In this document: positions 11,988-53,700 of the stretch, piece after piece | Layout: each line of letters starts with the position of its first letter | Position numbering within the stretch: position 1 is the stretch's first letter | Assembly (NCBI GenBank): GCA_963969365.1 | Contig: OZ017748.1 | Span: 310,001-374,000, forward strand | Direction: 5' to 3' | DNA from: Asterochloris sp. CNOR1 | Lineage: Eukaryota > Chlorophyta > Trebouxiophyceae > Trebouxiales > Trebouxiaceae | DNA length: 64,000 bases | Made by a program: the position numbers and the translations under genes | The notes under the pieces: generated by a model | Databases searched by the model: none | What the model was told of the DNA's origin: nothing | What the model saw: only the letters and a program-made list of their open reading frames with translations

Positions 11988-14900
11988 GGCGGCAGCTTTG
12001 TTGATAACAGCTTTGACACTCCAGTAGAGTCACTCCACTGGGGCATTCATGACCTACATGCTCATGGCATGCGTTGCGGCTTTGTGCTGCCAGCAGCTGC
12101 TGCAACCGGCTGGCCGCCTGTATGCTTAAGCAGATGCAGGCTGCCATACACCCAAGGCGTCACTTGCTGCTGTGGCTGCAGTGCTCACTGGGAGCTGCAC
12201 ATGTGTGCTTAATGCAACTCTGATCCCAGCACTGCATTACGCAGCAAACCCGGACGGCCTTACACAACTCAAAGGCTGCTGCTGCGCAAGCAGCCTGCAC
12301 CGTGTTGTCAGTAGTACCCCGCTGCAAGCCTGCCAATTTGTTCAGTGTTCACGGTCACCAGAATGCAATCAGAAGTGGCTGAAGAGGCTAGTGTGACTGG
12401 CACTGCTCGGGCCCAAGTGTCTACCTGCAGCTTGCCAGGACCCAGGGTCACAGTAGTGTGCCAGTCAGTGCCCCGTGCTTCACTTTGGGTGGCCAAAACA
12501 CTGCTGACCATCTGTACTGAACCACAAGACCAAAGCCTGGAGCACGGGAGGATCTCTCAAGATGTGACGGAAGTGCACAGCTCAGTCATGGGCAACCTGC
12601 CCTTGGGCGCAGAATAGCTAAGAATCCAGCAGATCTGTTTCAGATGGTATTTGCATGACCATCAAAAACCAATCAGGATGCCTGCTTGTAAAGAGAGCTA
12701 TCACACATATCTGCATGGCACGTATGTAGCAGCGAGGCAGTGATGCTGCTAGTTGCTCATGACAGGTTGCCCCTGAGCACCAATGCTCCCTCAATGGGAT
12801 TGCACTGTGGCTTGTAGCAGGCAGATTGAAAGAGCTGCTGCCCTGAGCTGTGGCCCACCTCAATTGAGTTGCATAGCTAGGATTTCACCTGTGACGAGCT
12901 CCCCATCGTCATCAAGCTCTCATCACACAGGTCCATCAGCAATACAGCCCAATTGTCAGCCTTCCAGTCAGCGCTAACGCCAACGCTGCACCTACCAGCC
13001 TACCTCCCAGCTGAGGTCTAGGTTGGTACTGCTTGTTCTGCACTTGCCCCCAAGCCCCTGGCATGAGTGTTGCGCTCAGTCTGTAGCAATTGCTGCTTGC
13101 TTCGTGCTACAAGTGGTCTTGGAGGATTCCTTCCTTCACCTAGGGTCCAGTGACTCCACTCCTTGTGCACTCTGAAGCAAAAGTGCAGATATTGCTGAAC
13201 AAGCTGACATCGCCTTGTTGGAGTCAACTGTGATTGCTGAACTGCATGCAGCTGCTGCACTGCGCAGTCATATAGCATGGCTTCACAAAATGCCACACAG
13301 GCTTTGGAGCGGCCCTGGAGGCTATGCCCTTGGGCACCAACCCCGCTGATGATGCTGGTAAGGTATCACGGCCTGTTGCTCTTAACATTGCTGCTGATGC
13401 AGCCGCACACGAGGCACCAGTGCCTCACTCAGTGTCATTGTCGTCTACTGTGGTTGACTCAGCCACACACTACGCACTTCTACCTACATCACTGCTGGTG
13501 CCAACACTCACTGTTGCATCAGCACCGGCAGCGACCACAGTCCCTTTTCACTGTAGCAGTCATGGACTGGTTCAGAGCTGTGATTCCGCACCCCTTGTCA
13601 CCACCCATTAGGATGTCGTCAGTTGATGCATTGTCTGCTGAGCTCCCACTCGAACTCACAGGTGCCCCTGGGCCCAGAATGCTCTCGTCAGAGTTGGCAT
13701 TGCCATTGCAACGGCTGTGAGAGGCTCAAGTCCCAGAGTGTCCAGGAGCTTGTGGCAACTGGGGTCAAAGGCGGGCATGCCAACAACAAATCTTTCCCTG
13801 ACCTCACTGTGAAGCCACCTAAGCTCGGTTACTTGAGCTGGCAATTGCTGCCTTGGCTGCTGGTGCTATGCAACAGACTTTCGAAAATGATGGCCCTGAT
13901 CAGCCAGGGAACTTTGGCCCATCATTGAGTATGCCAAAGCCACAAATCACTTTCAGTATGGCCCTGCAGAGGGGTCATCAAGGAGCTGACGGGTGGCATT
14001 TGGCCCCAACAAACGCCTTAATGCGGGACTTGCAGACATTGCTGCTAAGCGCATGCACGCCCACATCCCCGCCTGCAAACGGCCAGCTAGCTCAACGAGT
14101 AAGACCACAACCTGCTAATTGCCTCAACTACAAGCAGGGGGAGAAACATGCTCTACTGCAGAGGTATGATAACAATGAGCCGCTTCTCCGCAGCAATCAG
14201 CCCCTGTTGCAAGCACGGCCAGCTGCTGACTATTGCAGGCTTAAAGCTGCACATGTGCTGGCCAGCGCCAACAAGGGATGAAGCAAGGTGACGGAGCTCT
14301 TTGAGGACTGACCAGCACAGTAGCATCTGTTCCCCAAACAACACCATGTGCTACTATTGCAATGCTGCCTGATGCAGGAAGAGGCGCGATGTGCTTTGTG
14401 TCAGCACCTTACTTCTTGACAACAGACCCCCCTGAGTCTCCTGGCTGGGCGGATGTCACTTCACTGAAAGCAACTCCCCCACTGAAGGAAGTTTCCCCAC
14501 TGTGTGCAGCTTTTCATACGGAAGCAGCCTGTGCAGAGGCAACAGTGTCCCCACTGGCAGCATTCTCCTCACTGACAACATCCACCGTGCAGGCATCTGC
14601 CTCCTCACTGGCAGATCAATGCTGCCAGTGAGGGGCTCAGGTCACCTGGGGGCCCGCTGTCAAGAAGGAGGGTGCTGACGCAAAACGTGCTACGCCTCCT
14701 CTGGTTTGGGCAGCAGTGAGGTGAACAGCAAATGGTGCTGTTAAGGAAACGGATGCTGCCGTGCTGGCCGTCGTCAAAGGGCTCCACCAGTTTACCGACA
14801 TGCTGATGCGTCAGGAGACCAGTGTCCGTTAGAGAGCTTTGGCCTCAAGCAGCATTGCCTAGCACGTGTGGAGCCTGCAACAGGAGCTGGCCCAGCCAGT

Positions 14901-31438: not shown

Positions 31439-34400
31439 ATGCTGGCTCTCAGGCTCTTGGGGCGAGGGACTGCGTGCAGCTCAAAATCAGGCATCATCGA
31501 GAGCGAACTTGCAGTGCTGCAATCAAGCATTGTGGCCTCATGGCGATTCAAGTCCACCCGCACGGAAAAGGACACATTTGGGCCCTTGGAGGTACCCGGG
31601 GACAAGTGAGCATGATGATGCCTCACCAGATGCTGGCTCCTGATGCATGCTGTCAGAGGACTGCAAGCCTGGATGCACTGCTGATTGGCAAAATCATCTC
31701 TCAGGTATTGGGGCGCCCAGACACAGCGATCAACGCAGAACTTCAAGATTGGCGGGTTACGGGAGCGCATGCCAGAGCCCATCGTGAGGGCTTTCGGTGT
31801 TCAAAAGCGGGCGGCTGCTAAGGTGGGGGCTGCTGCTTGCAAAGGCCTTTACGTTTCCGCTTGTGGCGTGTCTTGGCACACATGTCCATGTGAAGGCCCC
31901 AGTCAGTGTTGTGCCTCCGCCCAGGGGTTCACTCAAGACTCTGGGGCTGGCTATGTCAATCCTGACCTCCACTAGCGGTGCATTAATGACATGGCTTGTG
32001 CTCCACTGTAGCCTCCTGTGTTGGCGGATAGGGGACATCGGCTCTAATGTTGCATTGTCCAGTTCTCTGATGCTGAGGTCACCGATGACACCTTCTGGCA
32101 CCTTGGCTGCTACAAGTGGTTGCCTACTCATGCTTGGGTAGGGGTTTCTCAAGGCAGCACACATGCCAAGCCTCACTCTGTACTCCTGCCGCCTGGTACT
32201 GCAGGTGATTATGGAGCAGGGGTCGCTCAATACCATGATGCAGATGCCGCAAAGCTAACACAGAGCAGGCAGCGGTCATGGCTGATGAGGGCCCTGACCA
32301 AATACTCCCTGCCTGCCTGTCACCTGCAGGTGAACATGGAGCAGAAGATGCTGGACCCCAAGATTGGGAATGCCATTGTGAAGGCTGCCACCGAGGTGGC
32401 TGATGGAAAGCTGCTGGACCACTTCCCTCTGGTCATCTGGCAGACGGGCAGCGGGACACAGAGCAACATGAATGCCAACGAGGTCATTGCCAACCGGTGG
32501 GAACTCCAGCAACGGCAGTCAATGGCAGCGATTCCCCGCATTGGGCAGTGCTACTGAGTGGGCCAGCTAGCAGTCAGACAGAGGGCAAGAGGGCCAGCAT
32601 TTAGCTTTACTGCGGGTGCCATCCTTATCTTGATCATCTGACATGCAGGCAGTGGGACGCAGAGCAGCATGACTGCCAATGTAGTCACTGCCCATCAGGT
32701 GGAACCACATGCCAAGAGTCCACCTGCTCCCTTGCTGCAGGTCCCAGCAAGCTGAGGATGCAAATATGTGTGCCATAAGTGCTGGCAGCTGGGGGCCAGC
32801 GGGACCACAAGTCCTTTCTGCACCTGAAAGTCGCTTATGTCTGTGCCTTGATACAGGTCCATTGAGATCCTGGGAGGCCAGCTGGGCCGCAAGTCTGCTC
32901 AGCACCTGAAAGCCGCTTCTGTGTGTGCCTTGGTGCAGGTCCATTGAGATCTTGGGAGGCCAGCTCGGGGACAAGTCAGTGGTGCACCCCAACGATCATG
33001 TGAACAAGGGGCAGAGCTCCAATGACACCTTCCCCACCGTGAGCAGTGAGGCGCCTGTAGCTCTGGCTGCAGTGGTGTGTAGTTCCGGGAGTGCGTGGCT
33101 CAGGCTGCCATATCTGCATAGGCCTGAGATGTCTGCATCTGGAGCCTATCGGGGTTGCTCTCTGCCAGTGTGAGCTTTACCACATGCAGGGCCGGGCTGC
33201 ATGGCATCCCTGGATGCATCTGGCTGTGGCCAACAAATTGAGCTGCTCTCTGCCAGGACTGCACGATGCTTCTGTAGGATCTAACCCCGCTTGGTGGCAG
33301 CCTTGCCCTTCTATGGTCAGGGGCCCTCAGTGGCTGCTGCTTGCTGCCTCTGAAGGTGCCATTCCCCGTTAGGTTGGCTCATCAGCAGGCGATCAGGTGT
33401 CACTCCCCCTCTGGCCTGCAGGTGATGCACATCGCCGCTGTGACTGAGGCAAACACACTACTCGTCCCAGCACTGCAGCACCTCCATGTGAGTCTGGCTG
33501 CAATGCATGGATGCCCGGCCCAGTGCAATTGCGCTGCTGCATTGACTTGGGCACTGCTGCCCTGCACTGCCTGCCCACTGAGCCGCTTGGGCATGTGCCG
33601 AAAGCCACATGGGTCCTTGGCATTGCTGAAGAGCATTGCATATCAGTGCAATGTCATCCCTGCTAGCCTTACTGAGCATTGAGCCCTGTGCTGGTGGATT
33701 GCGTCTGCTCTTTGCTGCGCATGATCACAGCTCCAGCGTTTTCACAGGCACAGCACCGCAAGCTGGGTCGCATGCTCTGCAGCAGTGCCGCCCTGCCGTT
33801 GCAGAGAGCACACTGCTGCCTGCAAAGAGCGCCTGGTGCTGTTGCTTTGCAGAGCAGCTGATCACTCAGCCGCCTGCACAAGTGCACTGTGTGGATCTGC
33901 CGTCCTATGGCTGTGGGCAGCTTCAGCCCTTCGTTCTAAAGTCAGCAGCTGCACTGTGATGCAACCCTCGCTCTCCCACTCTGATGCAGGAGGCCGTGCA
34001 GCAGAAGGTGGAGCTGTGGAAGAACATCATCAAGATTGGGCGCACCCACACCCAGGATGCCACGCCGCTCACTCTGGGGCAAGAGTTCAGTGGCTACGCC
34101 ACACAGGTGGGTGCAGGCTGTCTGGCTGCTGTGGCTGCCTGGAATAGAATGCAGGAAGATCCAGATGGTGCTGCCTCGGGCTATGCCCTCTGAGAGGTGA
34201 ATGGTAGCCGCCTGCAATTTGTTGCTGCCTGCAAGCCAGGCAGAAATGCCAACTCCTCAGAGTGCCATGCTGAAAGCAGGACTCAGTGGCTATGCCACAC
34301 AGGTTGGCTGTGGGGCTTGCTGGCGGGGGCCATCTAGCATCCAGAAAGACCTTGTAACAGGCTCAGACCATCCTCTGCGTCATGCATTAGAGCTGCACAG

Positions 34401-37216
34401 GCCGGCTGCCCTGCCTGCTGCCCAGCCAGCCAGCAGGAGCATGCGGGAACAGCTGTAACAATTAGCAGCTGTGGTGATGTGTGGCAATGCAAGAAGGGCT
34501 ATAAACCCTGAAACCACAGCAGAACAGCGCCACCTGCTGCACCACCCAGCGGCCCCTGGAGCAGCTGCACTGCTTGGCTGCAGGTGGAGTACGCCATCGA
34601 CCGCGTCCAGCAGGCGCTACCCAGGCTGTACCAGTTGGCGCAAGGAGGCACAGCTGTGGGCACAGGCAAGTCCTGACCACATGAGCCACATGGGCTGTGC
34701 CTGCAATCTTGGAGGCTTGTGTGCTGAGACGGCTGCAGGATATGGCTGGCAGTGCATGTTGCTTCCAGGGTGCTGCGGCTGCCACCTTGGCAGTCGTAGT
34801 CTGCCAAATCCTGCAGTAGCGTGGCTGCAGCTACTGTGGGGAGCACTCACTCAGGACCGGGCACAGACTGCTGTCCTGCCTCTGCTGCTGCCCACCATGA
34901 GGCCAGGAACAGGCTCATGCCTCACCGGGGGGGGGCTTCCTTATAGGCTGCTGCCTCACTGCAGCCTCCACAGCAGCAGCCAACCCTTTTCTGCAGGCCT
35001 CAGCCCCCTCCTGTCTTAAGTCTGCAGGCCTCTGCTGCAGGCCTCAATGCCAAGCAGGGCTTTGCCGAAAAGTTTGCAGCCGAGGTGGCCAAGGACACAG
35101 GCTACGATTTCGTGACAGCCCCCAACAAGTTTGAGAGCCTGGCAGCCCATGATGCCATTGTGCACATGAGCGGCGCTCTCAACACGGCGGCTGTGTCCCT
35201 GTACAAGGTTGCCAACGACATGAGGTGAGGAGCTGAGACCCAGCAGGGCCCTGTAGACCACACAAACTTGCGTTGGCAGATTCTGGATCCCATGCTGCGT
35301 GACAAGGCTGCCAAGATGAAGGGTGAGCTTTCGCATTGGATTTCCAAGACCATATCACAGCGCATCACCACTTCCCTGGTCATGGCAGCCATGGCCCTGT
35401 ACAATAGTGCCAGCAACATGAGGTGGGTCGCAACCTTTCCATGGACCTGAGACCTGCAGATGATGCTGACGGGCATGTAAGCGGGAGCATGTGAACGGTG
35501 CTTTGGCCAGAGCAGCAGTAGCGATGTGTATGTTTTGTTTTGTTTGCGAGGTGAGCCACAGACGACATATGACATAACTCCTGAGGCTGCTGATCATCAA
35601 GTTGAGCTGCAGCTCAAACAAGCTCTGACTGGTGTTTCTGACTCATGTGCCTGGTGGTACAGGCTGTTGGCCAGCGGGCCGCGCTGTGGGCTGAACGAGC
35701 TGAACCTCCCGGAGAACGAGCCGGGCTCCAGCATCATGCCAGGCAAGGTCAACCCCACGCAGTGCGAGGCTATGACCATGGTCTGCGCTCAGGTACATAT
35801 TTTGGACTTTGGTGCCGAAACAGCAACTGCTCACAGAGAGGGAAACACATCAGGGGAGTCCAGTCCTCCTCTGCACTAGAGTCACGGGGCTATGACTGCA
35901 GCTGCAGACATGTCTGCTGCCCTCAGTCTTGCCTGCTCAGATTCTGCAGCTGCAGGGCAGGCGCCGTTCTGCTTGCGTCCCTATCTGCCTCTCAAGCTCC
36001 CTTTAAAATTAGAGTCCTCAAATGGCTGTCTCCCTACCATGCAGCTCATGGGCAACAGTGCAGGCATCAGTATGGCAGTCTCCATTCGTCATTTTTGGGA
36101 AAATCATTTTTTCCCACGATTTTGCGCTGCAGGTCATGGGCAACCATGCAGGCATCATCACTCAGCATGACGGGTCCAGTTTTGCAGATGGAAACTACCC
36201 AGCTGACACCCCCTCCCCTGCTGGTTGTGGCCATTCACACAGGCATCAGAATACAGGATATTACTGATTACAACAGTGGCCAACCTCCTCCCAACTTTCA
36301 CTTTTCGACCCACATGTATGCTCTGCAGGTTGTGGGACTGAAACCCACAGAGGCATCAGCACGACACGCCAGCATGTTTGATACTCACTGACCATTCCCA
36401 ACCAATATTCAGCATTTTGTCAGCCGGCATGTGCACCCTGCAGGTGGTGGGAAACCATGTAGGCATCAGCATGGCCGGCTCCCAGGGGCACTTTGACCTC
36501 AACGTGTTCAAGCCCATGATGATAGCCTCCCTGCTCCAGTCCATCCGCCTGTTGGGCGATGCGGCCAACTCCTTCACTGACAACTGCGTGGCAGGGACGC
36601 AGGCAAGGAACACCATACGAGAATGACTGTTCTGTGCGTGCAACATGGGCGTGCAGTCCTTTCCCTGCATGCATGGCAGCTTGTGGGACAAGACGGGGCA
36701 CTGCAGCAGGGAGCAGGGGCCACAAATTGGCAGCATAGGCCCCGCAGGTCAGCGAAACCAGAGTGTTGACACTAGTATGTGCTGCAAAGTAAAGAAGGCG
36801 TCGTCTTGCTGATGTGGTTGGCTGCAATGCTCAGGGAGTCAGACTCTGTTAACAGGGTCGACTGCTATGCTAATGCTAGGTCAGCGCAGACCGTCAGGCA
36901 GTAATGTGGATTCAGACTGTGCAGATGTGCATCAGCCCATTGCGTGCCTCAGGCTGGCCATGGCTGCTGCCGACCATCCCCTCCTTCTGCACTGCAGGCA
37001 AATGAGGTGCGCATCAATCAGCTCATGAATGAGTCCCTCATGCTGGTGACAGCCCTGAACAACAAGATCGGGTACGACAAGGCCGCCGTCATTGCCAAGA
37101 AGGCGCACAAGGAGGGCCTCACACTAAAGCAATCGGCGCTCAAGCTGGGGCACGTCACTGAGAAGGAGTATGATGAGTGGGTGCGTCCAGAGACCATGCT
37201 GGGGCCCCGGCCTTGA
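31439..37216 (+). CDS. class II fumarase (fumarate hydratase), probably mitochondrial (502 aa)
   Basis: Eleven exons close in phase: 31439-31605, 31705-31822, 32330-32496, 32939-33038, 33422-33487, 33990-34106, 34584-34665, 35041-35224, 35663-35792, 36444-36602 and 36998-37216. It interconverts fumarate and malate in the TCA cycle. Exon 1 begins [18 protein letters not shown], Arg/Ser-rich and nearly free of acidic residues like a mitochondrial presequence, then enters the mature start [20 protein letters not shown]. Class II signatures follow: [52 protein letters not shown] with the catalytic-dyad histidine, [15 protein letters not shown] (SS-loop signature, about residues 355-370), and a C-terminal domain ending [12 protein letters not shown]. 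Introns after 34665 and 36602 begin with GC. Introns hold many decayed exon-edge copies. Confidence 0.95.
32640..32705 (+). repeat. decayed downstream copy of fumarase exon 3 end
   Basis: The exon 3 end ([16 protein letters not shown] plus GTGGGA, exon end 32496) recurs about 200 bp downstream. It reads approximately [16 protein letters not shown], followed by GTGGAA. Confidence 0.75.
32855..32900 (+). repeat. decayed upstream copy of fumarase exon 4 start
   Basis: The acceptor plus exon start (CAG, then [13 protein letters not shown] from 32939) recurs about 79 bp upstream as CAG, then [13 protein letters not shown]. It is nearly identical over about 40 bp, so it is one of the youngest copies in the window. 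Confidence 0.8.
34275..34320 (+). repeat. decayed downstream copy of fumarase exon 6 end
   Basis: The exon end FSGYATQ plus GTGGGT (34106) recurs about 200 bp downstream as LSGYATQ plus GTTGGC, and the similarity extends into the intron side. Confidence 0.75.
36041..36443 (+). repeat. four-step ladder of copies of the fumarase exon 10 acceptor and start
   Basis: The working junction CAG|GTGGTGGGAAACCATG at 36443/36444 is preceded by four decayed relatives. Their junctions lie near 36044 (CTCATGGGCAACAGTG), 36132 (GTCATGGGCAACCATG), 36222 (GTTGTGGCCATTCACA) and 36327 (GTTGTGGGACTGAAAC). Each is followed by a variant of GCAGGCATCAGCATGGC. Steps are about 88, 90, 105 and 116 bp. The 36132 copy matches the working one at 26 of 33 positions by hand count. 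Confidence 0.85.
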
Positions 37217-37573: not shown

Positions 37574-40500
37574 TCAAACACGGCGCTGAATCTTTGGACG
37601 TGGTCTTGCTCCTGGGTTCTGCACGGGGGGCGGGCGGTGGCCCTCAGCAGCCTGCTGCTGCAAGATCTGCCCAATGAGGTCCGCGCGGCTGGACCCCACA
37701 TGGCGGCCACATGGCTTGCCTGCCCGGAAGAAGAGGAAGGTGGGCACCTGCAGGTGTTTGACCAGGAGGTGGAAGAAGGTGGTCTGCAGAGGGCCCTATT
37801 GACATGTCGCACAGCAAGTTCCGCACAGCCTCTTTGAGAAACAGCTGGCCTCGTGCCCTTGTGCAGTCAGCTAGGTGCAGGACCATGCAGCAACATAGAC
37901 TTCAAGCTGCTGTACACGCTACCTGCACACAAGAAGTCCTGCCTTACAACAAATCATTATGATTTGGCCACCATGGAGCTCACCTCCACAATGTTGAACT
38001 CCCGCAGCAGCTCCTTGGTCTCCTGTGAGGCATCCCCAATGAGCCGCGCAAAGCTGGCAAATCTGCAGATGACAAAGCACGAACTCTCTTCCAGCACAGT
38101 ATGGGTGTGGTAGAGGCTTCTGATATTACTGTGCATGCAACACATTCAGGATGACCAAAACAGGTATCAACAGCAGGCCAAATGCACACAGATCAGATAT
38201 GCAAATTTGGTCAGATCATCCTGTTATGAAGGCGTGAGGAGGGTTCGTGAGAAGCAACGGGATCGCTTGCGCAGTTCTTTGTCTCACATGGAGGCCACCT
38301 CACAGGCAATGCCCCTGTTCAGACTCTTGGCCAGAAAACAAAGAATTGCACTTGCGCCCCCATGAGCTGGTGCTAAAATGCTGTAAAGCCATGGGTGCAG
38401 GAGCAGTTTTCCAAAGACATTTTGGGCATGGGGGTTCCTTGCTCACCCTTCCATGTTCTTTGCTAGCGCCAGCACAGCTGGGAAGACGTGGATGCAGGGG
38501 TCGGCGTTGTTGAGGGACACGTCCACCACGCTCAAGACATCTGGGCCCTGGCTACTGAGGTAGGCCTCCAGCTCAGCCCGGCTGGTCAGCTCCTGCACGT
38601 ACTGGGAGACCTTCTCGCCGCGCGCGGCTGTGTCGCCAAAGAACAGGACGCCTGCAGCCAGGAGGGAACCAGTGGCACTGAAATAGGAGAGGCTCTGTTG
38701 CTGCAGGCACCCTGGAGCCCCCACGGCTGCAGCAATCCTAGTCAAGGAGCAAGCGTACAGAGCGCACAGCGCACTGCAAGACTCCTACACCCTTACTTTT
38801 CCCTGAAGCTCAACGCAGCAGCAACAGTGCTCCCACCCCTTGCTAACTCCTGCTGCAGCATCCTGGCCCAGAAGGCATGCCTTGCCCAGGCCTGCATGGC
38901 TGGTGCTTGGCCCTGCGTTATCTGGCTGCATGCCCAGCCGTTATTTCAGCACCCCTGCCCTGTCTCACCTTCCCCTAAGTCCTGCTCCAGCTGCAGGACT
39001 CCCCTGTGCTCCCACAGCATCTGCCTGTCCCGCCAGAACTGCAGCGTGGGCAGCACCTCGATGCCCAGCTCGTCGCAGGCGGCCTGACCGTCAGGTCCAT
39101 CAGCCTGCAGGGTGATGACTGACATGAGCGTGTGCCAAGTCCAGCATCACACTCCAGTATTGAAGTTGTGCTGATCAGATAGGTACCATCCACCGCCAGT
39201 GTGTCAGCGTGCAGAGCAGGCAAGACCTGCAGGCACGCTGCAGCTCGTGCCGGTACGCTTGCAGCCTTGTCGGCCCTGATTTAGTGATCATCCAACTTGC
39301 AGCCAATGACGGCTGCCCTCCACGGCTGCCCCAAACCCTCCTCCAGCATGACTTGCAAAGGTACAGCAGGTTTCAGGGACTACAGTGCAGTACGTGCTTG
39401 AGCTCCAGGCAGTCCTCAGCAGAAACCCTTGTTCCAGAGATCATACAGCCCTCCAAAAGCACCAAATCCCCTCCTGCCCCTAATTTACCTCCAGCGTGAA
39501 GAAGCAGACCTCTGGCAAGTCTTGAGCCGTGCACTGCAGCATGTGCGTCAGCTCCAGGCAGACTGTCAGCAAGACAGCCCTGATCCAGAGTTTGTCGAGC
39601 CCTGAACAACCTTCAACTTCCCCTCACTCCTGACCCCACCTCACCTCCAGCGTGACAAACCGGACGTCTGGCGAATCGCGAGCAGTGCGCTGCAGCACGT
39701 GCTTCAGCTTGAGGCAGGGCGCCAGCGCAGCCTGCTGCTCATCCTTCCAGTACAGCTCAGCTTCCTCTGCCAGCCCCGTCTGGCAGACTTCAGAGGACTC
39801 CACCTCCAGGACGACAAGATTGTGCCCAGCCTGCAGGTGGTCACTGGAGGGATTGGAGGAAGGTCATATGCTGGCACACAGCTGCAGGTTCCAGGGGCCA
39901 GTACACTACGGCCACATGCAGAGGCAGAGGCTGGCAGAGCCAAGGTGACCTGCAAGGATGATGTGTCACGGTTGTCTGCAGGAATGTAGTAACCATACTG
40001 GATGCAGCAAGCCGCCAACACCAGCTGGCAGAGTTTCTCCTTCTTCCTTGTCTGCAGCCGCAGAAAGGCTGAAGGGCCAGCCTGGCGAAAGCCCACAGCC
40101 CTGCAGAGAATGACAGCCAACCCTGTGTCTGCTCCTTCAATGTTGTGCAAGTTGCTGCAGCAAGCGCCGCTGCACTGCAGCAAGAGTGGGCTGCCGTGGG
40201 TTAGCTTGAGGGCCGACATGTGAGCCACAAAGTCTTGAAACTGCTGGCCGGGGGCCGGTCTGAAGTTTGCTGTTGCTTGGGATGCTGTGAGGCGGCCAAC
40301 ATCGTTGAGTCTGCTCCAGGCTGGCCTGAGTTTTGCGCAGACTGGCACAGAGTACAGCAGCGCAAGTATGCCAGCATACAGCTCTTACCACAATCCTGTC
40401 AACATCACAGCATGAACTGTTTCAGGTCACACGATTCAATGCAGCCTGTGGGCAGGCACATGGCAGCAATCTTTTGCATTGCTGCCAGCACCACAGGACC

Positions 40501-45600: not shown

Positions 45601-47195
45601 GTCCTCTAGGAAGGTAGACCTATGATCATGCAAGTGAGACCAAACACTCTGGTCAATTGCTCAAACCAGGGCCAGGCAGTGGCGGTCATGGCAGAGGTTC
45701 TAGCCAGCTTTTAACAACCTGGCTTTGGCCATGCAGCATTGAAGGATTCTACCAAGAGTCTGGAAGGGCTGGCAGAGATGGTCTTCCCAGCCTGTCCATA
45801 CTCTATGCCTGCAATAGTGAGCTGCGTGACATGCAGCGCTTGGAGAAAGGGTACCGAAAAGGCGCTGTTGGCCAGATGGCTGCTTATGCACTGGTAGGGT
45901 CCCTCGTGTGGCACTACTTTGCTGCATCGGCCGCAGGACTTCCTCTGAAGCCAAAACGGCTGGCACTGTTTGCACTGATGGATGTGCTGCTGCTGGCGAC
46001 CCTTTATGAGATCAGAGCCAGCCAAGGCAGCCTGCATGAACAATCAACTCTGGCACTGACTGCATCCGCAGCGACATGCAGGCCCAGCAGAGCCGCCACA
46101 TGCCAGATGCAAACAAAAGGATGGCTGCCTGCAGTACCCAAGCTGTCGCCGCAAGGTGCTGCTGAGGCACTTCAAAGAAGAGCGTGGCAGCTGTGATGCG
46201 GCACATGAGCTGTCTTGTGACTACTGCCAGCGTCCAGGCCGCATCTGCAGCCATCTGTCGCAGCTGGAGGCAGTTCTGCAGGCACCTGGGCAGGCCCAGG
46301 TGAGCAGAGTGATCAAGCACGACACACAATGTTCCAGTGTTCTGAGCGCATCTGCTGGAGGCTCCCTCTTGGTGCTGTTGTCTCTTTTGTCTGAGATCTG
46401 CAGCTTCATGTGCATTGGACCATGCGTGCAGGATCCAGCCCAGCAGGGGCCTGCTCCAGCAGACAGCCAGCACCAAAGTCCTGAATCCACAACAATGCTG
46501 CCGGCGGGCATGCCTCGACGGGGCAATCTTCAGCCCCTTGCCAAGCGGGTCAGGACAACCAATTATGGCAATCCCTTGGCAGTTTGGAAAACAGCCATGG
46601 ACATTGCAGCTGAGCCCAGCCGGCCGACGCCACAGGGAAGTGCAGCGCCTTGGCAGCTGGCAAGGCAGTACAGTGTTCAGGAAGACAGACCAGTCGTGAG
46701 CATTTCACAGCAGGAGGCAGCCCTTCCACAGGAGCAACCCGAGAGTGCTGGCCAAGCAAGGCAAATGGGATGCCACAACAAAGCAACAGCTGCAACTTGG
46801 ACTGACACAGCCTCGCAGCCACTGCGCCAGCCCCTGATTGGCACCAATTGCAGAGCAAACTGCAGAATGTCCAGGCCTCTTGCAGGTAACTAATGGGTTG
46901 TTACTGGGTTGCCTTGCTTGACAAGGCTCATCTCAGTATGTGTAATTAGGCTGCAGATCTCTTGTTGCTGCCCGGCAGGGTCTTACCTGCTCCAATTGCC
47001 ATGGCTTTGAGCAGCCCATTCTTGTGCTCACTTTCCTCAGTACTAGGCGCTGCTCAGACATCAGCCTGGTGGACTGAGCGACTGAATCGTCTAAATGCAG
47101 CTGGCCCTGAGGATCCTGGCAAGTCAGAGCAGATTGCCATCAGAAGCATGACCAACAGACGCTCTAAATTCACTGTCCCCAGGAAGCAATGCTGA
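42700..47195 (+). CDS. RecQ-family DNA helicase (about 637 aa)
   Basis: Thirteen exons close in phase: 42700-42832, 42906-42967, 43077-43169, 43387-43503, 43806-43885, 44196-44421, 44862-44923, 45088-45202, 45403-45497, 45737-45893, 46135-46299, 46432-46885 and 47041-47195. It is a 3'-5' DNA helicase for recombination and replication repair. Motif 0 is [19 protein letters not shown]; motif [14 protein letters not shown], is split by an intron; Ia is [13 protein letters not shown] is [19 protein letters not shown] is [11 protein letters not shown] is [22 protein letters not shown] is [12 protein letters not shown]. The RecQ zinc motif follows ([13 protein letters not shown] then [12 protein letters not shown]). 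The tail is polar and no HRDC domain is seen. Intron 4 starts with GC. The start Met is the nearest in frame; an upstream exon may exist. Confidence 0.92.
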
Positions 47196-47723: not shown

Positions 47724-50700
47724 ATGGGAGCTCACTTCAGCAGTCTGGCAGAGGCAGCTGATGCCAACAACCTGGCAGCTGTTGAGAGCTTTCTGGCCAC
47801 ATGTGACGCAAACGAGAAGGATCCAGTGAGGCAGATAACTCTGCTTCACATGCACGGCTGCACCATGAGTCCAAGAATTTTGCCTCAATCGGACTCAGTT
47901 GTGTCGCTCTGCCAGCAAGCAGGCGTATAGTATACGCAGCCTCTGTTACGCTGACTTTACGCATGTTGCTGCCTCATGTAGGATGGCTGGACTGCGCTGC
48001 ATTTTGCAGCCTGGAAAGGACATAAGCATGTTGTGCGTAGCCTGCTGGACCACCGGGCAGTTGTCAATGTGCAGGCAAAGGTACGCCAGCGCATTGGACA
48101 TTTTCACCTGCAATGGTACAAGGGGATTTGGTTTTGTCCAGGGGCGGTAGACAGCAGTTTGTGGCGAGGCACCTGCAGGGCGTGCTGCTTGCAATCTGTG
48201 CTGTGCCAGGACTGGTCACTTGTCGTCAAGGTAATGAGACCTGTGGCAGCTGTGGCAGGGAGAGGTCTTTATTGACTTATTCAAAACAGCCAGCTGTTCT
48301 CCTGAAGCAAGCTGAGGGCTAACAGCACCCACAGGTGCTGAGCATCCCAGGCAGGCAGCGCCCACAGGCTCCAGCCCCAGGTGCCTGCTGTGGCCTCTTG
48401 AGCACCTGTGGCCGAAGCCTGAGGGTGCTGCGTGTCATGGTGCCCATTTTCAAGGCATCAGCTGGGTGCATGCAGCACAGCAGGGTGCCCTTTCATGCAT
48501 CATGTGATATAGGAAGCAATAGCTTGCTGGGTTGCTCAGCACAGGCAACACCGCAAGCACTACACCTGTGGCCCTGCAGAACATCTCAGGCCGCAAAGTA
48601 GTGCTGGCTCTGCATAAAGGCAAATGCAACCCAATCAGCATCATAGTGCAGTCTGCAGAACAGGAGGTGCCTCTGCCCTGTGTCACTGCTCACAGATGTT
48701 AGCCCTTGCCTGCTCACAGCACTCTCAACCTCCCTCCAACAAATAGGCATGCCCTGCAGAAGGGGCGGGGTTCTCTGCACAGACAGCCCTCTGAGGCTAC
48801 ATGCATGAGCTGGCGGTGCCACTGAGTCCAGCACAGCGATCAGCAACACACTGCAGTCATGCTGCTGCAGCGGTGCTCCGCAGCACAGGCCGCTCGGCTC
48901 GAAACCAATCACGCTCTGCAGGATGGGCGCGCTCCTCTGCACCTGGCTGCCCTGTCAGGCTGCGAGCAGACCCTGGCCCTGCTGCTGGGCGCACATGCAG
49001 ACGTGAACCTGGCCGACAACTCTGGCATGACTGCGCTGCACAAGGCCGCCACACTGGGGCACTCGCGGGCCGTGAAGCTGCTGTTGCAGCGAGGAGCTGA
49101 CCCCCACACTCTCATGAAGGTGAGGCAGCCAGAGGACCTGCTGGTGAGCAGACTGTGACTGCAGCTGGGAAGCCAGTCTTGCTCAGCCTGGGACTGATCC
49201 TACATAGTGCAGGTTGGTGCGGCAACACTGTCTCCAGATTGTTGGTGGTATGCCGGCATTTGCTGCTGCGGCATGCAAGGGCTGTTGCCCTGCTGCTATG
49301 GCTCGGGCTTGGCAGCTGGGGTCTCTGCCTCAGAAAGCCATCAGGGTGGCCAGCAAAGCCTTCTTGATTGTGAGGTATATGCATTTTCAAAGCAGCATGC
49401 CAGTGCTGCTGGTCACCTACCTGCAGTGCTATGAGGGTGAATGCTGCAGGCACAATGTGCTGTTGAGCCCTGACAGTTGGTGTGGTCTGTAGACAACATC
49501 GATCCCTATGCAGCGGCCAATCCTGAGCCGCCACACAAACATACTCACCTGCTGCCACAGCTGCTGAACGCAACCTTACAGGAGAGCACTGCTCGTCTGC
49601 AGCCCTGGCCAGCCAGCTGCAGGGCGTCTCATCTTGACCAGCTTCTGATCACTTCTGCAGGGAGGCACCTGCGCACTGCACATGGCAGCCTGGAAGGGCA
49701 GCGAGGAGTGCACCAAGCTCCTGATTCAGTCAGGCGCAGATGTCAAGGTAAGTCCTGCTTCTGCGCATTGTCATCTCTGGAACATTCAGAGTAGCTCTAC
49801 AGAGCAGTGACCGCATACACCAGCAAAAGTTTGGCATCTGACAGCAAGAGCTCATTCAGAGTCATGGTTCACACCGCTAAGCAGGATGTTGGTGAAGCCA
49901 CCATAAACACAGGGGGCACCTCACAATGAAAGTTCCAGTCATGGCAACTTTCAGCCTGCTGTGAGCCAGCCTTGCCCGCAAAGGTATATCGGCCTGCCTG
50001 ACTTGACAACTAACCTTGCGGATGGGTCAAGCATTCGGCACCGTTCTCGTCATGGCATGCAGGCAGAGAACACCACGGGTGCCTCGCCTCTGCACGATGC
50101 CGCCTCCCGTGGGCACAGCCAAGTGGTGCGGGTGCTACTACTGGCGGGGGCAAGAGCAGAAGCCACAGACCAGGTGGGGCCCCACATGGTCCTGCACCAA
50201 CCACCAATGGCTACATTGAGGGGGAATGCTCTTTGTCCTGCTCTAAGGTGCAGCGCTTGCTGGCCGCCTCATGCCTGTGTCTGCTGTGCAGAAGGTGCGT
50301 GTCATGCACCAGGTGCCTGCACAGGAATGCAGCCCATCAGCTGCTGGACGACCCAGCTGCTAGCGGTCACGCATCTGCTGAGACTGCATCTGTGCTGTGC
50401 ACTGAGGTGGCAACACTCCCCGCTGCCTGGCAGGCGGTTGCCTGACGCCCCAGCTGCTGCAAGAGCTCCGCAGACTGGTGGCTGTGACAGAGGGGCAGCA
50501 AAACTGGGGTGCAGTGGGCATGTGGAGCAACGCCTCATGGCTGAATTCCAAGCTCTCACTGCAGGAGTGCAACGATTTTGTGATCTGGCAGCACGGGCAG
50601 GGCGCTGCCACAGAACCATCTGCTGGTGGGCTGTGCCGCATGTTTGCTGCCTCTCTGCAGGAGGGCAACACGCCCGGGGACCTGGCAGCCCAGGCCGGCC

Positions 50701-53700
50701 ACTACGAGACCGCCCAGCTGCTGGGAGAGCGCCGCAGACTGGTGGCTCTCGCAGAGGGGCGGCGTGCCCAGGGCACAGTGCGCAGCGTAGGCGCAGGCGC
50801 AGGCGCAGGCGCTCCCTCAGCGCCCCCCTGGCAGGCCCCACCTGGCCGCAGCAGCAGCTCAGCGGCTTTGCCCCAGCACGGCTCTGCCAGCTCCAGCCAG
50901 GCAGCGCCCAGCAGCAGCGAAGCGGCAGGCTCACACCTCCGCAGCTCTGGCAGGGTGCCTTTGCTGGCCGAGCCAAGTGGCAGCGCAGTAGGTCAAAGCA
51001 ACCACCCTTCCAGGGCGCCTCTGTACCCCCAAGTCTTCAGTCTGGCGCACCAGTTGTGCTGCTGTGTTGTAATACACGTGCAGGCTCACAACTACCTTGA
51101 GATCATACCCCCTGTTTCTTGGCCTGCGCCAATCACGCTGCTGTGCTGCTATGCACATGTCCAAGCTGACTGTGGCGACCAGTCCTGCAACTTCTGGTCT
51201 CTCCAGGTTGCAAACACATTGCTGAGCTGAGCCTGGCATAGTCAAGCTCACGTTTCTTGTACCAGCTGGACGCAAGACGCCTGCTGTGATTTTTTTGCAT
51301 ACCCATGTCAAAGCTTAAGGCTGCATCCCTGATGTACAGAACGTCTGCATTATCTTGGTCAATAGATGGATCTGATGTGCTTGCAGTATACAGTAATGTG
51401 TTGCCGCAGTGTGCATCCTCACCCTAGCACAGCATTCAACCTCACGTCCTCTCAATGTGGTTTTGCAGGCAGAGGAAGGGGGCACAGGGCCTGCAGACGA
51501 GCATCATGCCACTGGCAACGGAACAACAGCTGTGGCAGCAGCCGAGGCTGCATCACAGCAGGGGGCACCTGAAGCTGCAGGCGTGGCAGGCTGGCTTGGA
51601 GGCATGTGGCAGGGTGTGGCTGGCATGTTCCGAGGTGGTGGTAGCCCACAGCGGCAGGCCACACAGGCAGAAGCACAGCACCCTCCAGCAGTGAGCTCTG
51701 AAATTGCACTGCTGCATGCCTTGCAGCAGTGAGCCAGGAACACCATGCTTTGCCAATGGCTGCCATAGCAGTAGGCGTGGCAGGTTGCATTGGGGCGCAT
51801 GGTGGGGGATGGCTGGCATTTTGAGGGCATCTGGATTTCCTCAGCAGCAGGACAGCCAGTCCAGAGGCAAGGCACTCTGTCCAGCTTCAGGGAGCCCTGG
51901 AGGGCTGTGTATCTTGCACAAGTTGCAGCATCCATGCGGGCATACCTGGGCTGCCATGTGCTCTCGAGTGGCACATCACCTGCCAATATTTGGAGTGTGA
52001 GGCTAGCTGCCATACTCAGAAGCCAGCTCTTTACGCAATGGGGTCACCTGCATGTCAGCATGGCATTTTGCAGCTTCAAGTCTGGCTCAGGACGGCATAC
52101 GCTCCTCTGCCCTCAAAGAGCACGTCAATGTGCTGTTCAAAGTTCCACACTGGGCTAGTTGCTGGTCTGGCATGGCTCAGGTATCCTCCACATGCAAGTA
52201 GCAACCCCACCCACACTGCAGCTGCAATGCGCCACATACATGGGGCAGGCCCCTGACATACAGCAGCCTGATATGTCCAGGTTGCCTGCTGTGTGCATGG
52301 TCGCAGCTTTCCTGACAACCTCCAGGACCCGTGTCAGAGCTCAACAAGCCGTGATGGTACAGGTGGGGGAGCAGCCACGTGTTGGACGGCGGCTGGGGCT
52401 GACCAGCCCAGACAGCAGTGATGACAGCGAGGATGAAAGTGCACCACAGGGGCACTCGGTGAGTTTTCAGGGCATGAAGGCATCTGAACAAGGTGCATGC
52501 TCATGGTAAAGTAGTGCGCAGGTCGTCATATGAGCACAGGAACCTCTCATGCACACATCACTGTGCCTCCTGTGCATGAAGGTCTTGCTTTGCTCTGTGC
52601 ACTATGTGACTCGGCGATGATAGTAGTGATGAGAGTAGATGTGAGGCTGCACTACCAGGCCAATAGCCGCATAGCCCCAGTGAGTTTCAGAACCACATGG
52701 CGCCAGCAGCCTCAGCAGCTGACACACGCAGCCTTTTGCTGTGCTGCGACCTGCCATGCTACCATCCCTTCTTGACCTGATCCAAGCCACAGCATGAGCC
52801 AGCTGACGCAGCGCCCATTGCTAATGTCAGATGCTTCAGTGCAATCTTTCTGACCTGCTGCAGCCACAGCAGTATGCAGAAGTCAAGCAGTCCATCCAGC
52901 AGTTGTGGCAGATGTTCCCATCTAAGCTGTGATCTGATGAAAACATTGCCAATACCTGCAGGCACAACAGGAGGCAGAAGGTGGCCAGCTGGGCCAGCAG
53001 CTGTCCCACCTGCAGATGCAGTCAGCACAGGAGGGGCCCGTCCACCCAGAGCCTGCGCAGTGCCCAGTGCTGACGTAAGCTGCCTGGCTGACAGAGAATT
53101 TGCGATGCGCTCTGCCAAGAGCTGCGTGTTGAGTGTTGGCTTGCTAAGTTTTTGGGGGTTGTGGCGGCATTTGCCAAGAGCTGCATCAGTTCAGGCGACT
53201 GCCTGCATACACTGCTTCTCTGAGATGGTGTTGCCTGCCATGCTGCACGACCTCTACTGCCTGCTGGCGCCAATCTCAGCACAAAAGAGGCACACAAAAC
53301 TGCTGCAGAATTAAGCAGACTCACACAGATATTGCTGGCATGTCCTGAACTTCAGAACCGCCACTTCATCTACAGGTCGTCAAACACCTTACTGCCCCAA
53401 CCAGCACGCACTGGCTGTGATGCATCAAGAAGCACATGACTGCTGGACATCAAATTGATGCAGACAACTGTTTGCTGCAGCGTAGGCAGGTGTCTGGAAG
53501 TGTCTTTAACCCCAAAGCTCTCTGCTGTGGCTCCCAGCCCCTCCTGTCCTTTGCTGCAGGCGCTCTGAAGTGGAGCAGGCAACTGGAAACTTCAGTGCAG
53601 AGCGGCATTTGGGTCATAGCGCATTGGGGGAGGTCTTCTCGGGGCACCTCCTGGATAGAGCAGTTGCGATCACGCAGCTGGCGCGCTTCGAGGCCGGCAT

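Follow-up and report, generated by a model that had tools for sequence, protein, structure and literature searches.

In the conserved genes examined from the genome studied here, many of the longer introns carry worn copies of the edges of the exons that adjoin them. The reading we favour, with a probability of about 0.8, is that local tandem duplications spanning exon–intron junctions have lengthened these introns with the protein unchanged, the inner copies persisting as exon-edge fossils. Our starting point was a sequence-only reading of one window, the whole 64,000-nucleotide stretch C3:310001-374000, which had claimed a ladder of five versions of one acceptor and exon start inside a fumarase intron. 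The genome comprises 56.4 Mb, assembled in 21 contigs. A green-lineage alga is indicated by its 31 chlorophyll a/b-binding matches and by RuBisCO small-subunit matches, split into three pieces, on a 4.5-Mb contig. The ladder is real. It is also not unique to that intron: the pattern is found in other introns of the same gene and in two more gene families, CCT and proteasome.

A ladder in a fumarase intron

The gene concerned encodes a class II fumarase. Its product, read across the joined exons of a 10-intron splice model, stays open for 469 amino acids, matches the profile TIGR00979 with 749.9 bits and finds the mitochondrial fumarate hydratase chain 5upp_A in the PDB with an E value of 4e-219. 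The only basis of the splice models for fumarase, and of those for the CCT genes below, was protein homology, splice consensus and an open frame. Two of the fumarase introns (34666-35040 and 36603-36997) are GC-AG introns, and GC also starts the exon after each. The modelled gene is as follows:

31537..37216, + strand: modelled portion of the class II fumarase gene, its 5' end outside the model, 11 exons and 10 introns
31606-31704, 31823-32329, 32497-32938, 33039-33421, 33488-33989, + strand: introns 1-5
34107-34583, 34666-35040 (GC donor), 35225-35662, + strand: introns 6-8
35793-36443, 36603-36997 (GC donor), + strand: introns 9-10

Four decayed copies of the acceptor and exon start of intron 9 lie in register within that intron, which confirms the ladder (in the motifs below a slash marks the junction):

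35793..36443, + strand: ladder intron, fumarase intron 9, 651 bp
36036..36083, + strand: rung u1, decayed acceptor and exon start (CATGCAG/CTCATGG), junction 36044
36124..36160, + strand: rung u2 (TGCAG/GTCATGG), junction 36132, 85% identical over 34 bp to the working copy
36216..36252, + strand: rung u3 (TGCTG/GTTGTGG), acceptor AG lost, junction 36223
36320..36361, + strand: rung u4 (CTGCAG/GTTGTGG), with a 5-nt insertion, junction 36328
36435..36482, + strand: u5, the working acceptor and exon start by the gene model, junction 36443

All five claimed versions are thus present, and the working exon adjoins only the last of them, u5, in the model that gives the open 469 residues. From u1 to u5 the junctions are spaced 88, 91, 105 and 115 bp apart. 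Rung u1 is 77% identical to the working copy over 48 bp and 90% identical to u2 over 30 bp. A shared 8-mer, AGGCATCA, lies 17 nt past the junction in u1, u2, u3 and u5 and 22 nt past it in u4, which has the 5-nt insertion; of its 10 occurrences on the + strand across the whole window, 5 lie inside the ladder. When the 50 exon bases following CAG (the CAG itself left out) were aligned to intron 9, the four top scores were 35, 33, 22 and 19, each above every one of 1000 dinucleotide shuffles at the same rank (maxima 27, 22, 19 and 17). The matches are long at rungs u1 and u2; those at u3 and u4 measure 12 and 11 bp and keep the common register. Searching the 56.4-Mb genome with 35225-36479, the one intron-bearing query used, with very common words skipped, gave no match beyond the locus itself.

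One part of that reading did not survive. It had treated the ladder as a time series, with divergence rising with distance from the working exon, and we find no such rise. Over 38 columns the identities to the working copy are flat (29, 30, 27 and 30 for u1 to u4), and a longer alignment, in which some rung junctions fall one base off, gives 56/107, 52/109, 38/107 and 64/116, again with no trend; a readable time series is therefore unsupported. We also considered whether u1 and u2 are the older copies. Their second codon is ATG, and it is GTG in u3, u4 and the working exon; the best-matching fumarase chain in the PDB, which we take to be human, has Met at this position, as the ATG of u1 and u2 would encode, and this would suit a greater age for the two rungs. 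They also share GCA against GTA (Val, the residue of that chain), however, and this common GCA fits sister copies, so we draw no conclusion.

Intron 9 is not alone within the gene. Copies of exon edges, from donor as well as acceptor sides, occur in four other introns:

32181..32219, + strand: acceptor-edge copy in intron 2; original 32303-32344; score 37 with intron-side bases; outside the p ≤ 0.01 set
32631..32702, + strand: intron 3, copy of the donor edge at 32430-32500, offset 201
32791..32895, + strand: intron 3, acceptor-edge copies in tandem with a period of 82, reaching into the working exon (to 32977)
34283..34307, + strand: intron 6, copy of the donor edge at 34087-34111, offset 196
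35381..35425, + strand: intron 8, copy of the donor edge at 35183-35227, offset 198
35302..35314, + strand: intron 8, possible further donor-edge rung, weaker than the first; 13-bp match, score 21

At p ≤ 0.01, 3/10 donor edges and 2/10 acceptor edges of fumarase have such a copy. The acceptor array of intron 3 shows a 105-bp match at offset 82 with 83% identity, and a 68-bp alignment that spans the junction.

A self-comparison of the whole window found direct repeats that include these exon-edge copies. Among its rows with E up to 0.007, 19/22 are direct repeats 78-396 bp apart and 3/22 are inverted. Some other features of the window deserve mention in their own right. One of its few inverted repeats is an imperfect pair of 140 bp at 14293-14431 and 14648-14785 (73%), and an imperfect palindrome of about 84 bp lies at 48352-48434. 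A direct repeat at 39383-39717, with an offset of about 149-156 bp and an alignment of 186 columns, carries no gene assignment. Another, 86% identical, pairs 50449 with 50713 inside the reading frame 49961-51100, which by eye presumably encodes ankyrin-like repeats; the frame 45657-46196 has what we take, also by eye, to be a RecQ-helicase-like motif.

Exon-edge copies in three gene families

The chaperonins gave us a larger sample. A profile search with PF00118 returned 84 matches, from which 12 CCT/chaperonin loci were taken; 11 of the 12 yielded 56 introns, intervals with a profile gap being left out. Tested against their own intron, 11/56 donor-side and 14/56 acceptor-side exon edges reached the minimum p of 1/61. 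Three of the 56 introns had no splice model and were left out of what follows (one of them is the ladder intron of locus L033, below), giving a splice-modelled set of 63 introns, 53 from CCT and 10 from fumarase, with 126 edges. On the same strand, 27/126 edges in 24/63 introns have an adjacent exon-edge copy at p ≤ 0.01, some of the matches spanning just 10-17 bp. Reverse complements gave 1/126 at p ≤ 0.01 and 7/126 at p ≤ 0.05, and non-adjacent introns of the same genes gave 4.4% of 504 tests at p ≤ 0.05. Both controls are near chance, and the copies are specific to the adjoining exon. Identity to the exon edge is 74-95% for 25/27 of the significant copies, a figure that flatters them, being selected on the exon side by the test itself; the remaining 2 are short exact matches. 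The earlier claim of duplication at acceptor edges stands and proves too narrow: the two sides contribute similarly, with 12 donor and 15 acceptor edges copied. A second acceptor ladder accompanies the first:

1984-2296 of CCT locus L033 (gene strand): five TGCTGTGCAG/G steps, the last being the working one

Copies go with long introns. From the shortest length class to the longest, they are present in 0/14 introns (<300 bp), 6/19, 8/15 and 10/15 (at least 600 bp), hence in 24/49 modelled introns of at least 300 bp. The median length is 547 bp for introns with copies vs 360 bp for those without (Mann-Whitney p = 0.0002).

The proteasome genes were examined twice, on a non-random sample and with an edge definition that differed between the runs. 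In the first, on six deliberately compact genes with 13 introns and 24 usable edges, 0/24 edges reached p ≤ 0.01, with 2/24 reaching p ≤ 0.05. The second run took in four more loci, most of which have longer introns, and applied explicit splice models to all ten; 5 introns that lacked a model and 2 that had a profile gap were left out, leaving 16 introns from nine loci. Here 6/32 edges were significant at p ≤ 0.01 and 9/32 at p ≤ 0.05, vs 1/32 for the reverse complement. Two of the 6 matches came from loci that had none at that level in the first run, because the edge definition had changed, and one sits exactly at threshold. By length, the p ≤ 0.01 matches divide into 0/18 edges for introns below 300 bp (3/18 at p ≤ 0.05) and 6/14 edges for those of at least 300 bp. 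The proteasome genes therefore agree in direction with the length pattern in CCT and fumarase, as a non-random sample can.

Local direct repeats are abundant in the sequence sampled. BLAST self-comparison of 227,900 bases found 96 direct vs 2 inverted repeats, self-palindromes uncounted. An ungapped scan of the same bases, in which one array's rows may count more than once, found 86 direct repeats scoring at least 38 vs 0 in one Markov shuffle per piece; 64/86 have offsets of 75-300 bp and 14/86 fall below 60 bp. From each of eight contigs a 10-kb stretch at one fixed coordinate was also examined; BLAST found 34 direct repeats in these, with none in 2/8. We had entertained a minimum repeat period of about 60 bp as the mark of a minimum-intron-size filter, and dropped it: the ungapped scan has those 14 repeats of shorter period, and the lower limit of about 60 bp in the self-comparison is attributed to BLAST's minimum diagonal separation.

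How the introns may have grown

The mechanism we propose has few parts. Local tandem duplications would arise in the genome with units mostly of about 75-300 bp. One that happened to span an exon–intron junction would leave the splice site and the exon edge in two copies. If the outer sites (first donor, last acceptor) were then the ones spliced, the protein would stay the same, the inner copy would become intron and the intron would grow by the unit length. The inner copy would decay and the exon would be conserved, leaving a recognisable exon-edge fossil, and repeated rounds would produce a ladder. Tandem duplication is probably the mutational step behind all the copies, the outer sites are presumably those used in RNA, and the copies themselves are likely to be neutral and silent, as far as sequence can indicate. 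The earlier proposal of repeated duplication across the junction, with the outer copy kept as the exon and the intron lengthened, is borne out by rungs that keep junction register and by the greater length of copy-bearing introns. Counting against it are the weak intron-side similarity of the copies and the modest retention of GT and AG among them (figures below), the shortness of some matches and the first proteasome result. Tentatively, and at somewhat short of even odds, we would go further: splice junctions may act as a one-way ratchet that absorbs duplications, this may be the main route to long introns, and introns above about 300 bp may consist largely of worn exon edges that record past states of the exon.

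Junctions might instead be preferred targets of duplication, for example through co-transcriptional breaks, rather than merely the places where duplications stay visible. The classification of repeats speaks for this. With the 31/53 rows that touch unmodelled sequence left out, 22 repeats lie wholly in modelled gene sequence: 19 pair an exon edge with its own intron, 2 pair rung with rung, and just 1 is purely intronic without being rung-to-rung, despite 29 kb of intron vs 13 kb of exon. Intron-only copies, however, decay on both sides and fade sooner, which could alone give the bias. Because the intron side decays in both copies, intron-only duplications of the same age are hard to see, and a junction preference is not implied. 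We consider such targeting unlikely.

It is improbable, to our minds, that repair simply copied tens of base pairs of a nearby exon edge into the intron as a short templated insertion, with no true tandem duplication. Many matches are indeed far shorter than their offset, and the intron-side flanks are only weakly alike on average (mean identity 0.34 at donors and 0.33 at acceptors; controls 0.26), so the junction-spanning extent is not directly visible for most copies. Intron-side homology is clear in L033, where the copy takes in 24 intron-side bases, and in introns 2 and 3 of fumarase. Some of the longest matches, on the other hand, run to about one period or more, as in the 105 bp matched at offset 82 within intron 3 of fumarase and a 95-bp direct match at offset 104 in locus L037, and most significant copies sit where duplication in situ would place them.

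The copies could conceivably be functional, as decoy acceptors, alternative exon starts or recursive splice sites working in CAG/GT steps, a prospect we rate as rather improbable. Rungs u2 and u4 keep CAG/GT and could act as acceptor and donor at once, but u1 and u3 lack it. By strict mapping, AG is retained in 7/15 acceptor copies and GT in just 4/12 donor copies. Exons that start with GT are not significantly more frequent where the acceptor edge is copied (9/15 vs 18/48, p = 0.15), nor are those that end in AG where the donor edge is copied (6/12 vs 29/51, p = 0.75).

The background model of the sequence-only reading, in which an AGGT-bearing exon segment is tandemly duplicated (the Rogers/Hellsten type) and the intron is the duplicated piece of exon, makes a prediction opposite to that of growth. 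Growth should copy the start of exon 2 upstream of the acceptor and the end of exon 1 downstream of the donor; AGGT gain should put them at the other ends, the exon-2-start copy at the intron head and the exon-1-end copy at its tail. GT does start 27/63 of the exons after introns, AG ends 35/63 of those before them, and both fumarase GC-AG introns are followed by an exon that starts with GC, all of which would suit AGGT gain. Its head and tail copies, however, are at chance across the 63 modelled introns (3/63 and 1/63 at p ≤ 0.05), and in-register head/tail identity is the same as in shuffled pairs; growth-type placement reaches p ≤ 0.05 in 17/63 and 13/63. The placement fits growth through junction-spanning tandem duplication rather than intron gain from AGGT in an exon. 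Very old gains with erased traces set aside, AGGT gain is disfavoured as the source of the visible copies, and we think it very improbable. A dispersed repeat element or an assembly artefact is a negligible prospect, for which we found no supporting evidence: the queried 35225-36479 matches itself alone, the copies are specific to their adjoining exon, and 25/27 of them are, at 74-95% identity, too diverged for misassembly.

Known routes to intron change

Internal gene duplications are reportedly a source of intron change (Gao and Lynch 2009), and in that respect our case resembles theirs. Intron sequence decays fast, which makes it difficult to document intron lengthening that involves no mobile elements. 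Exon edges are under selection and so give a lasting standard for counting and dating duplications into the intron. Were the rate of 24/49 for introns of at least 300 bp to hold genome-wide, a single assembly would suffice to measure how often small tandem duplications arise, how large they are and how well splicing tolerates them. The 24/63 rate is for this genome alone, and we make no claim of lineage specificity.

Tandem duplication is established as a source of introns, as several papers attest (PMC3443670, PMC4974935, PMC2891723, PMC2812944). In the potato RdRp case (Ma 2016) an intron–exon structure was duplicated, with a separate 83-bp duplication inside an intron of the gene (PMC4974935, which also cites Rogers and Hellsten 2011 for intron gain by tandem duplication). 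For fly lines, 1901 duplications, mostly tandem and with a median of 367 nt, are quoted in PMC2891723. Introners supply intron sequence across many genes (PMC9860276); they are dispersed copies of one element, whereas every copy here derives from its own neighbouring exon. Across the titles and abstract openings searched and the passages cited here, we found no account of widespread exon-edge copies in introns.

As in intron sliding in Drosophila (PMC2891723) and tandem repeats at human boundaries (PMC2812944), duplications at or near junctions alter exon–intron structure; those reports, in the parts consulted, deal with single cases or recent paralogs, without a broad record of worn exon edges in introns. 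As in tandem-duplication gain of the Rogers/Hellsten and potato RdRp kind, a local duplication would be neutralised by splicing. Unlike in those cases, an existing intron is lengthened here, no new position is needed, and the copies lie at the sites that growth predicts. What is notable against the known systems, and recurs, is the growth of existing introns from both donor and acceptor sides, in 24/63 modelled introns of conserved genes.
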